Below are positions 31,047 to 34,911 of a stretch of DNA of 64,000 nucleotides, piece by piece. Under the pieces are notes generated by a model, which was not told where the DNA came from, ran no database searches, and was given only the letters and a program-made list of their open reading frames with translations. The DNA is from Bimuria novae-zelandiae CBS 107.79. Lineage: Eukaryota > Ascomycota > Dothideomycetes > Pleosporales > Didymosphaeriaceae. The first letter of the stretch is position 1. Each line of letters starts with the position of its first letter. The translations under genes were made by a program, and so were the position numbers. The stretch covers positions 186,001 through 250,000 of the forward strand of contig ML976682.1 in assembly GCA_010015655.1 (NCBI GenBank), read 5' to 3'.

Positions 31047-32234
31047 TTACAGCTCATCGCGCTGCCCCTTCACAGCCTCCGCCTCCGCGCCCTCCATCTC
31101 GGGCGCGTTCGCTCCAAACACCTGCCCCGTCGTCGCCTTCCCCTGCAAGATAGTCATCAACATTCCTTCCACTACATCTACCCTTATCACCCTTCTCTGT
31201 AAATAAGTAAACACATTATCATTCATCGGCGCATGCACAGCCAGCGCCGGGAACCTCCCCTCCACCAACCCGAAGTTCTTCGCCATGGGCGCGTATTCCA
31301 CGGCGTCTGCCACGCCAAACGTAACATACTGCTCGAACTTCTTCGCCAGAGACGTAAGCTCGTGACGCAAAGCCCTAGCTTCATCCTCGGTGGTGGCGAA
31401 GATGTAGGCAGAAAGCTTGCCCGGCTAGCCCTGTTAGATGGAATTGAGAACGAGGGCGCACATGTAACTTACTGCCATGTATGCCTCCATATTCCGCTCA
31501 CTGAAGTCTCCGATGATCGTTTTTGTTGCTGTGGAAAGGAAGGCTTCTACGTCCGCTGCTGTGAAGGCGCCCTTGAGGAGTTTGTGGTCGCCGTCGGTGT
31601 TTTTGTAGCATTTTATGGAGGGGACGGTGACGGCTTCTTTCTCTGCAATGCTTGCGTAGTATGTGTAGCCGAACACGAAGTCTTCGTGGTGTTGTTCTGC
31701 GATGGAGTAGTATATCTGCAATGGGTCGTCCTGATCTGCTGGGAGGAATGCAACAATCACAACGTCGTCGACTTTCTTGAAATCACGCAGCTGGTCTTCA
31801 GAGCTGATGCGATATATTGTAGGGTATTCGTGTTTTGTGAGAAATGACCTGATAGCGTGCTCTGTCTTTCTCCCTCGATATCTTCCAATGGTTCTTGTTG
31901 TCGTTTCTTCGCTATCGGACCAATCCTTCGTCAATAACCGTATAGCTGGATACTCGTTTACACCGTATTCCCTACAAAGCTCGTCTTCGACGTCGCAGTC
32001 TATCAAGACAATTCGAGTGCGCATGGTTTTGTCATTCGCAAGCTTTTCGAGAACTTCATGGAATGGTTGGATGGGCTCAAACGTTCGCGATGAGAAAACG
32101 GTCAGAACAGGAGCATACTTCTCAAGCGCGAAGTCCAGATCTTTTTTTGTGGAGTTTTGCCACAAAGTGCGTGTAGCGAACGTCAATCGGACGGGTGCAG
32201 CGAACAGAAGAAACCGTAATGCTAACCGAATCAT
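31047..32234 (-). CDS. ER-resident PDI-like thioredoxin-fold protein lacking CxxC, ends RDEL
   Basis: Exons 32234–31473 and 31424–31047 (48-nt intron, GTAAGT…GCTAG), 379 residues. An N-terminal signal peptide (LALRFLLFAAPVRLTFA) and C-terminal RDEL mark an ER-luminal protein. The first thioredoxin-like domain (about 30–130) has APVLTVFSSR then IVLIDCDVEDELCREYGVNEYPAIRLL, a typical PDI layout, but the position of the catalytic CGHC reads without cysteines, so it should be redox-inactive. A second domain (about 145–255: EDQLRDFKKVDDVVIVAFL … VPSIKCYKN) and a third follow, the last carrying EYAPMAKNFGLVEGRFPALAVH. It is divergently paired with the P4H-like gene across 288 bp. A chaperone or subunit role is inferred. 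Confidence 0.88.
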
Positions 32235-32522
32235 GGCTGGTCAAGAAGCACAACGCGACTCCAATATGTTCAAAAAGAGGCCTTCGTAGACGTTGAAAGT
32301 AAGTGGGAGACTCTGTGGTCGGAGGCGCGATCCTAGATGCAGATCAGGCACATGTTGCCGTGCCGCGAGGTGCTGAAACCAACGTCGTTTCAGGACTGTG
32401 ACGAGCGTCAGCCTAAGAATATTTCCCCGCAATTGTCTCTCAACGTCATGACCTTCTGGTCCTACATAACCCAGGTAAAAGACGCCATCTAACGCAGCAA
32501 GACTTCGTATACGCAATCCACA
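32235..32522. promoter_or_regulatory. Bidirectional promoter between PDI-like and P4H-like genes
   Basis: 288 bp separate the two divergent start codons. Both products enter the ER, which suits shared control. I could not identify a specific element such as an unfolded-protein-response site. Confidence 0.55.
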
Positions 32523-33305
32523 ATGTTAAACCGCCTCCTACCACTACCACTCTTCGCTCTCCTTACCTCAGCTCTCTCAACACCTCAAAACTACACCTGC
32601 CCCCAGCACCTCTACAGCGTCCAAATCTTCTCCGAAGACCCCCTGATAATCTACATCGCTGGCTTCCTCACAGAGTCCGAAGCTTCCCACCTTGAATCTG
32701 TCTCCGCGGGCCGCTTCACCTCGTCACAAATCGCCAACCAATCCGGCCAGCAGCATCTCGCCTCGACACGAACCTCGCGATCAACATCGCTGCACAGTGA
32801 CGAAGTAGTCCGCTGCATCGAACAGCGCGCGCTGCAATTCCAGGGCTACGATATCCCGCGCACGCACCTGGAGCCGCTGCAAGCGGTGCAGTACAGTTTC
32901 GGAGAGAAGTACGCGCCGCATACGGATTGGTTTACTTCGTCTCTGCAGACGACTCCGGAGTACGGTGGGAATCGTCTGTCTTCGTTCTTCGTGTACATCA
33001 GCACTTCGGATGACATTGTCGGTGGAGGGACGCAGTTTCCTCTGCTCGATGCTCCGAGAGACGAGCGCTGGTGTCAGTTTGTGAACTGCGATGCTGGGTG
33101 GGAAGATGGAGTGACGTTTCGGCCGATCGCTAGGAACGCGGTGTATTGGCGGAATTTGAGAGGTGGGAAAGGTGGGAAGGCGAGGGTGGGAGATCGGAGG
33201 ACGCTGCACTCTGGGCAGCCGGTGCAGAGGGGTAAAAAGCTCGGCATGAATATTTGGACGAGGGAAGGGGAATTGGACGGAGCATATCGGAGTGAAGTTG
33301 TATGA
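32523..33305 (+). CDS. Secretory-pathway prolyl 4-hydroxylase alpha-like 2-oxoglutarate/Fe(II) dioxygenase
   Basis: Single exon, 260 residues, with a signal peptide (LLPLPLFALLTSALS) and no ER-retention tail (ends YRSEVV). The P4Hc fold is clear: AVQYSFGEKYAPHTDWF holds the iron ligands H133 and D135; FFVYISTSDDIVGGGTQFP is the conserved strand; TLHSGQPVQRGKKLGMNIW holds the distal ligand H229 and the 2-oxoglutarate-binding Lys at 239, ten residues later as in collagen P4H. The substrate would be prolyl residues of secreted proteins, though other residues are possible. It sits head-to-head with the RDEL PDI-like gene and tail-to-tail with the cysteine-rich GPI-type protein. Confidence 0.9.
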   Translation: MLNRLLPLPLFALLTSALSTPQNYTCPQHLYSVQIFSEDPLIIYIAGFLTESEASHLESVSAGRFTSSQIANQSGQQHLASTRTSRSTSLHSDEVVRCIEQRALQFQGYDIPRTHLEPLQAVQYSFGEKYAPHTDWFTSSLQTTPEYGGNRLSSFFVYISTSDDIVGGGTQFPLLDAPRDERWCQFVNCDAGWEDGVTFRPIARNAVYWRNLRGGKGGKARVGDRRTLHSGQPVQRGKKLGMNIWTREGELDGAYRSEVV

Positions 33306-33433: not shown

Positions 33434-34911
33434 TCATAACATAATCATAGCGATTCCAATCCCAAAAGCGCTAGCAATCATCACGGATATCGGGATTGTC
33501 GAAGGTATAGTCGCAGCTCCAGTGGGTGCCACTTTATCCGCAACGCTCGCCCCTGATGTCGCCGTGCATTGCTCCCCGCAAGAGAAGCCATTTGGACAGC
33601 AGTTACCGCCTTGGCTGGCAGCACAGCTATACCAGGCACTCGGGCAGCTGCCGCCCTGTGAGGCGAGACTGGCACCACTTGGCGCGACCACGACCACACC
33701 ATTGGTGTTGACAATTGTAGTGCTCGCCGTAGGTATGCACGAACCAGTCGTCTGGCAGTCGCGACCAACGCGACAGCAACCAGACGGGTAGTATGCGCTG
33801 CAGACATAGAAGCCAGTAGGACATACGGAGTCGGTCAGTGAAGATGATGCGGGCGGCGCGGATGTAGTTCTAGAGTCGCTTGTTGGGCGAACTGGTGCTG
33901 AAGGCGCCATGGTACTTGTGGGATCATCCCCAAGACATGATGCCCCCGTTGCGCATGTTCTTCCATTCTGACAACAGCCTCCTCCGAGAGAGGCCGCGCA
34001 AGAGAACCAACCCGTACTACAAGTGTACGATGCTGATGGGGACGGCGACGGCGTCGATGTCGGTGTCGGCGACGAAGATGTAGATGAAGACGAAGACGAA
34101 GAGGATTGCGTAGTTGGGACTACAATGACACCGGTCGAAGAGGTGGTGCTGGATACTGGCGCAGACGTGGACGGCTGGACAAATGTTGTAGAGGTGCCAA
34201 GAGCGACGCCTGTATAGAGTCAATACCGATCTCCACATTCCTAATCGCCCTCGACTTACATCCGACATCGAGACAGCTGTACCCAGGCAGACAGCAGCCA
34301 CCGTTTGGAGACTCTGGGCAGCTGCTATAACCTGCATCAGTATCGCAAGTGATTCCACCACTGCAATTCTGGCCGTCAGGGCAGCAGCCTACAGGGCCAT
34401 ATCCTTGATCCGATATCTTAATGCAGGTGCTTCCCGAGCCGCAGCAACTGTTCGGTTGCCCGATCGATGAACAATCATTTGTCCCCGTAGGACACTTGAA
34501 GCCGCGCTTCAAGAGCGCATCTCTTGCGCGAAACCGCAGAAACCAATCTTGTCGCAAGCTTTCTTCGACCGGTCGCAATGCCGCCTCAAATTGTGCCGTA
34601 CCATTCGCTAGCTCTCTTCGTTCGTCCCCTGCGCGCTGATGCGTTTCTGCGTCTTCTAGATCCGACGCGAATATCCAATTGTCAAACATGAACATCTCGC
34701 CCTCATCGCTGCTCATCTTCTTGACTCCGATTGGTTTCTCTTTCCTTATTTTCTCTTGTATGTCTAAAATGCGTTTAACGTGTACTTCATCCTCCGGGAA
34801 GTACTTCATATGTCTCGGTAGGTTGTGCGGCCATTGCGACTCGGCGGTTTCGGCGGAAGCGCAGAGGAGGAGGATGGTTGGCGGGAGCGCCAGTAGGCTG
34901 GGTAGCTTCAT
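33434..34911 (-). CDS. Cysteine-rich, Ser/Thr-rich probable GPI-anchored cell-surface protein
   Basis: Exons 34911–34260 and 34209–33434 (50-nt intron), 475 residues. Signal peptide PSLLALPPTILLLCASA. An N-terminal charged region (residues 25–135) is followed by two or three CPxG…CC…C-type modules (KCPTGTNDCSS…NSCCG, GCCPDGQNCSGG, SCPESPNGGCCLPGYSC). A long Ser/Thr stretch spans the region just after the intron. Two further cysteine modules follow (GWFSCAASLGGGCCQNG, CPTGFYVCSAYYPSGCC, CPSAWYSCAASQGGNCCPNG). The C-terminus is hydrophobic (IPISVMIASAFGIGIAMIML), fitting a GPI signal. Such proteins sit in the fungal wall or plasma membrane; function is unknown. The Ser/Thr/Pro stretch could be O-glycosylated. 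Confidence 0.88.

Follow-up and report, generated by a model that had tools for sequence, protein, structure and literature searches.

Does a fungal prolyl 4-hydroxylase (P4H) have a dedicated, non-catalytic partner encoded right next to it? The question is raised by a stretch of 64,000 nucleotides (positions 186,001 to 250,000 of contig ML976682.1, hereafter the window) from the 77-Mb assembly of Bimuria novae-zelandiae CBS 107.79, an ascomycete of the Pleosporales, in which a P4H gene on the forward strand and a gene for a protein disulfide isomerase (PDI)-like protein on the reverse strand are arranged head-to-head, with the start codons separated by 288 bp. The original prediction took the two products for a possible fungal equivalent of the animal two-subunit P4H, the PDI-like protein serving as a non-redox partner that retains the hydroxylase in the endoplasmic reticulum (ER). 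Sequence and Pfam analysis confirmed the two genes, with their coordinates, motifs and spacing, and further comparisons support a pair that is linked and co-occurring in many Pleosporales, with gaps. We tentatively favor, at somewhat under an even chance, an inherited head-to-head pair in which the PDI-like protein, itself retained in the ER, acts without catalysis as a partner and binds the hydroxylase or its client via the b' domain. Altogether, the findings suggest, but do not prove, that the PDI-like protein is a dedicated helper of the hydroxylase.

The PDI-like protein and its family

The spliced PDI-like product of 379 residues ends with RDEL and contains no CxxC motif, exactly as had been predicted. 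It consists of three thioredoxin folds in the order a-b-b' and ends after b', without an a' domain. Pfam matched Thioredoxin_6 (2.5e-22) and Thioredoxin (5e-8), and the structure model of an orthologue, P0007, which stands in for the window protein, has a mean predicted local distance difference test (pLDDT) score of 90.0. Of the features that define the PDI family, homology and multiple thioredoxin-fold domains are both present; ER retention was judged from the tail alone. The N-terminal hydrophobic stretches of this protein and of the hydroxylase fit signal peptides by Kyte-Doolittle hydropathy only. P0002, a hypothetical protein deposited for this species, is 100% identical to the PDI-like protein over 82% of the query, namely its last 309 residues, the database gene model having a late start and 309 residues in total. 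As the genome also keeps a canonical PDI with two CGHC sites and HDEL, which shares ~31% identity with the PDI-like protein, the latter is an extra paralogue.

The family was sampled as 72 database rows; in a second, word-based search, scoring was limited to the 7,997 candidates with the most words in common. None of the 38 rows with letters at the former CxxC site has a cysteine there, and CxxC occurs anywhere in only two of the 72 rows, a fragment of canonical PDI (P0192) and a protein with CSLC elsewhere (P0017); by sequence, the predicted loss of redox activity is fixed across the family. The C-terminal tails comprise 45 HDEL, six RDEL, one HEEL and one HTEL, so that H/RDEL is kept in 51 of the 72 rows, whereas among the 19 rows with none of these four tails 16 stop short of the end of b' and three reach it. 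These features support a putatively redox-dead, ER-retained PDI lineage that is distinct from the canonical PDI of this fungus.

One PDI-like candidate was found outside the Pleosporales, P0193 of Rhypophila decipiens (Sordariales), which has the same build, no CxxC, no apparent a' domain and an HDEL tail, and which lay at the margin of what the word-based search could reach. It scores 87 bits to the family profile versus 36.9 bits to the best PDI, two scores that are not on one footing. This lone candidate suggests that the family may be wider. In addition, a scan of viral contigs for neighbors of the PDI-like family yielded 30 pattern matches and no relatives.

The hydroxylase

The P4H product matches Pfam family 2OG-FeII_Oxy_3 (1.9e-7), and its structure model has a mean pLDDT of 87.2. 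Matched by equal spacings to the human collagen prolyl 4-hydroxylase (C-P4H) II, all seven active-site residues checked are in place: H133, D135, H229, K239, Y124, T170 and Y130 correspond to His430, Asp432, His501, Lys511, Tyr421, Thr467 and Tyr427, respectively (PMC9676403). The comparison covers the window protein and the best 120 of 336 proteins found, 121 rows in all. Among the 54 rows aligned, six of the seven residues are invariant and Y130 is kept in at least 90%; the pattern H.D...H...[KR] is matched by 118 of the 121 rows. By these residues the protein belongs to the P4H-type family, with hydroxylation of peptidyl proline as its probable activity. Since both proteins have conserved relatives in numerous species and the structure models are confident, the two gene models are real rather than chance reading frames.

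A possible N-glycosylation sequon, N-x-T/S, lies at residues 23-25 (window positions 32589-32597), directly before the invariant C26; of the 34 rows taken as Pleosporales, 32 keep the N and all keep T/S. Outside the Pleosporales, the P4Hs P0125 (Patellaria), P0120 (Amylocarpus) and P0108 (Mytilinidion) end with EDEL, ENEL and FSEL, which are possibly retention tails of their own. The genome also contains a second P4H-type gene (L008, at G000:C38:625375-625899), 45% identical to the window P4H, on a contig where the own-genome search gave no PDI-like match.

Comparison with known systems

The animal C-P4H is an alpha2beta2 tetramer, the beta subunit being PDI (7ZSC, PMC9676403). It shares with the fungal P4H the same set of His-X-Asp...His, Tyr, Thr and Lys residues; in both systems a PDI-fold protein bears the ER-retention tail, and the positions of the b' pocket are conserved within the fungal PDI-like family. 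In the human enzyme, PDI holds the catalytic domain via three contacts, Cys311 with the CGHC of a', Cys529 with the CGHC of a, and Ile324 with the b' pocket; the catalytic domain has a special N-terminal extension (residues 284-328) that harbors Cys294 and Cys311, and the two anchoring cysteines of the alpha subunit matter for the formation of functional tetramers (PMC9676403). By contrast, the fungal PDI-like protein, a paralogue in its own right, has neither CGHC sites nor a', and the fungal P4H, encoded by a linked gene, could not accommodate the dimerization and peptide-binding domains. The window P4H lacks the N-terminal extension (counterpart of human residues 284-322) and a counterpart of Cys311. 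It also lacks a counterpart of Cys529, its last cysteine being C189; any cysteine within the last 40 residues was found in only five of the 121 P4H rows. That animal PDI does not need its CGHC sites for this role, as the original prediction noted, was reportedly found by mutagenesis (Vuori 1992).

Because the extension, both anchoring cysteines, both CGHC sites and a' are missing, the pair does not belong with the animal C-P4Hs, and the predicted equivalence to the animal enzyme is not supported. A true fungal counterpart of the collagen P4H, assembled in the same way, would account for a P4H domain accompanied by a PDI-fold protein with a retention tail and a conserved pocket; contradicted at the interface itself, it is the least probable of the explanations that we considered. 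As to collagen as a substrate, the genome contains only three weak matches to PF01391, with a best score of 28.1 bits and one match above the cut-off. The fungal pair may nevertheless act in a similar way, through b' alone or another interface.

In both sequence and fold, the PDI-like protein is closest to canonical fungal PDI, such as the Chaetomium PDI in the EDEM:PDI heterodimer (8pko_B), which has the same a-b-b' order. Canonical PDI is a known partner subunit of another enzyme and, unlike the PDI-like protein, has both CGHC sites and a'. Among redox-inactive members of the PDI family, ERp27 (b-b') and calsequestrin (three thioredoxin folds) are thioredoxin-fold ER proteins that lack CxxC and act by binding. 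ERp27, for instance, contacts ERp57 (PMC7763558). Both come from animals and belong to other lineages; the PDI-like protein has retained PDI's domain order, a-b-b', and its gene is linked to that of a hydroxylase. In our view it is very improbable that the PDI-like protein has an unrelated role in the ER, for instance as a scaffold or in calcium buffering like calsequestrin, with the P4H gene adjacent through an accident of shared regulation.

We know of no PDI relative linked to Chlamydomonas Cr-P4H-1. This algal enzyme (3GZE/2JIG), which is the closest solved structure to the window P4H by fold and sequence, is a monomer (PMC9676403).

The b' pocket and the N-terminal segment of P4H

The human b' pocket that accommodates Ile324 of the hydroxylase is formed by Phe240, Phe249, Ile301, Phe304, Phe305 and Ile318 (PMC9676403). 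The equivalent positions of the PDI-like protein are F244, M253, M301, N304, F305 and H318, in a mapping whose human sequence was verified at the six numbered residues only. In an alignment of 53 rows, made up of the window protein and 52 of the 72 rows from the database, these residues are kept in 51, 50, 53, 46, 51 and 53 rows, respectively. The mean pairwise identity of the pocket is 0.92, compared to 0.50 over 130 positions of b', a level reached by only three of 10,000 random sextets. Two of the six positions (F/M/M/N/F/H) are polar; the pocket of the animal C-P4H is a hydrophobic one. In the fungus's own canonical PDI, the residues there are V, M, H, N, L and Q. The pocket is thus under strong constraint and unlike that of PDI in general, a combination that would suit a specific ligand.

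A candidate ligand is the segment N-x-T/S-C-P-x-H-L-Y at residues 23-31 of the P4H, in which residue 27 aligns with human residue 323. Among 34 aligned rows taken as Pleosporales, P27 and H29 are kept in all 34 and L30 in 29; among the other 20 aligned rows, P27 is found in four and H29 in five, a contrast that is confounded by relatedness. Placed where human Ile324 docks, the segment could be the ligand of the b' pocket. Taken to its full extent, such docking would make the pair a second, independently evolved two-subunit P4H, in which a redox-stripped, a'-less PDI paralogue serves as the ER anchor, its gene has become fixed next to that of the hydroxylase, and b' docks residues 23-31 of the enzyme; we hold this stronger version to be unlikely.

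Linkage of the two genes in relatives

A PDI-like row and a P4H row were inferred to share a contig if they give the identical length for the longest contig; gene order in other fungi was read solely from this identity and from locus tags, and orientation in relatives is presumed. Twenty-two of the 72 PDI-like rows have exactly the same length as one of the 120 listed P4H matches, compared to a mean of 0.16 and a maximum of 2 by chance, with lengths shifted by 1-500; five further pairs within 100 bases in length were left uncounted. Fourteen of the 22 are named species, including Kalmusia, Melanomma, Trematosphaeria, Curvularia, Ophiobolus and Ampelomyces. Three of the linked contigs are short (4,056, 6,537 and 7,507 bp), and the other 19 are at least 20 kb; in Kalmusia, the two genes carry the consecutive locus tags N0V90_008318/008319. 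In a P4H tree that included 32 chosen Pleosporales rows, linked pairs occur in both deep clades of these rows: one clade, which we take to be Pleosporineae, contains the 4,056-bp and 7,507-bp contigs, and the other contains the 6,537-bp contig, Kalmusia and the window. The identity to the window PDI-like protein is 38-39% for the former two contigs and 68% for the 6,537-bp contig.

Genes of Dothideomycetes tend to remain together on one chromosome, although in a changed order, so-called mesosynteny, and earlier fungal comparisons saw no synteny or blocks of usually at most five genes (PMC3219968). As genes in this class tend to share chromosomes anyway, the weight of the linkage rests on the three short contigs and the Kalmusia tags. 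The same background would allow for neutral retention, that is, unrelated neighbors not yet separated by recombination. Order is otherwise randomized, yet contigs of 4.1 and 7.5 kb are shared where the PDI-like proteins are only 38-39% identical; neutral retention is therefore improbable, though less so than a separate ER function.

A mirror-tree correlation of r = 0.77 (253 species pairs, 0 of 2,000 permutations) was not counted, as shared phylogeny alone produces such a value.

Proposed function and opposing evidence

We propose that the divergent promoter would cause the PDI-like protein and the P4H to be made together, the latter as a putative peptidyl hydroxylase of the secretory pathway. 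The b' pocket of the PDI-like protein may then bind the hydroxylase or its client, and the HDEL/RDEL tail would keep the bound partners together in the ER. Alternatively, the two proteins might be co-regulated and unbound, sharing one divergent promoter and one secretory program, with the PDI-like protein being a general non-catalytic chaperone, ERp27-like in kind, and the hydroxylase acting alone like the algal P4H. A general chaperone would not obviously need adjacency to one hydroxylase gene, or so fixed a pocket; we regard co-regulation as rather unlikely, yet as the most serious of the competing explanations.

Several observations weigh against a dedicated partnership. Ten of the 24 named Pleosporales P4H rows are not length-matched (nine of the 32 tree rows, plus P0131, a partial Pyrenochaeta row outside the tree), and the same is true of ten of the 24 named PDI-like rows, including Bimuria and Rhypophila, with 14 matched on either side. 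The ten P4H rows come from Lindgomyces, Clohesyomyces, Aaosphaeria, Dendryphion, Lojkania, Zopfia, Setomelanomma, Epicoccum and, twice, Pyrenochaeta. Such unmatched rows can stem from missing gene models, 90% clustering, the limited set of P4H matches or real absence. Bimuria is a known false negative: its P4H is absent from the 120 listed matches though encoded 288 bp from the PDI-like gene, and as the annotation of both Bimuria genes is unreliable, a gene that has no entry need not be absent. In Curvularia, the locus tags are 22 apart (E8E13_002050/002072), which may mean that the two genes are no longer adjacent there. In these fungi, neutral evolution alone would be expected to leave genes on one contig, so the 19 matches on long contigs are weak evidence. 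The PDI-like protein evolves much faster than the P4H, with a mean identity of 44% versus 70%, and P4Hs of fungi outside the Pleosporales mostly have no detected PDI-like partner. Part of the conservation of the pocket may be due to core packing, or to the protein's own conserved GQVFG tail filling it as a cap. Moreover, none of the 121 P4H rows ends with K/H/RDEL; tail-less P4Hs thus also occur in fungi without a detected partner, which weakens the argument from retention.

What stands of the original prediction is, in outline, a possible dedicated non-redox partner, consistent with the linkage, the putatively redox-dead, ER-retained lineage and the conserved b' pocket, but not its animal-type assembly. 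That the partner holds the P4H in the ER agrees with the conserved tail and is plausible, though not forced. Of the expected adjacency in relatives, inferred same-contig linkage was recovered, for part of the family only. The opposite pattern, a PDI-like protein found mostly where the P4H is lacking, was not seen, though it may apply to the unmatched species.

Genomic surroundings

The features of the locus are listed in Table 1. The intergenic stretch is presumably a shared divergent promoter, judging from its position. It contains three TGACG/CGTCA pentamers, at 32399-32410 and 32444-32448, possibly bZIP-type sites.

Table 1. Coordinates of the P4H/PDI-like locus in the window
Feature	Position	Strand	Remarks
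PDI-like exon 2	31047..31424	-	remaining b', GKAxxGQVFG tail motif, acidic linker, RDEL and stop
PDI-like intron, 48 nt, GT..AG	31425..31472	-	database protein P0002 crosses the junction without an intron
PDI-like exon 1	31473..32234	-	putative signal peptide, predicted redox-dead a domain, b domain, start of b'
Intergenic stretch, 288 bp	32235..32522		between the two start codons; divergent promoter presumed
P4H-type 2-oxoglutarate/Fe(II) dioxygenase, 260 residues	32523..33305	+	putative signal peptide, no ER-retention tail

Tail-to-tail with the P4H gene, a gene on the reverse strand (33434-34911) encodes a Cys-rich predicted secreted protein, with no Pfam match in the two open reading frames scanned. 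A larger gene cluster was sought via Pfam in 10 of the 60 listed open reading frames of the window, and only a Zn2Cys6 domain, a fungal rhodopsin domain and a ribonucleotide reductase were found. An Rfam scan of the window at the gathering threshold gave no match.

Implications

A search of titles and abstract openings, with subscription journals mostly outside its reach, found no account of such a fungal P4H/PDI-like pair, and little on the role of an ER P4H in organisms without clear collagens. A predicted P4H gene of Cladosporium fulvum is mentioned in passing (PMC10823647), collagen work in Aspergillus niger relied on introduced P4Hs (PMC12333218), and there is a precedent, with caveats, for inferring function from the microsynteny of PDI genes (PMC5722932). 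If the complex is true, a PDI can turn into a subunit that is dedicated to one enzyme and serves structure alone, and the partnership of hydroxylase and PDI would have arisen more than once or through another interface. It would also provide a clean gene pair, in culturable fungi, for exploring the task of an ER P4H where clear collagens are lacking.
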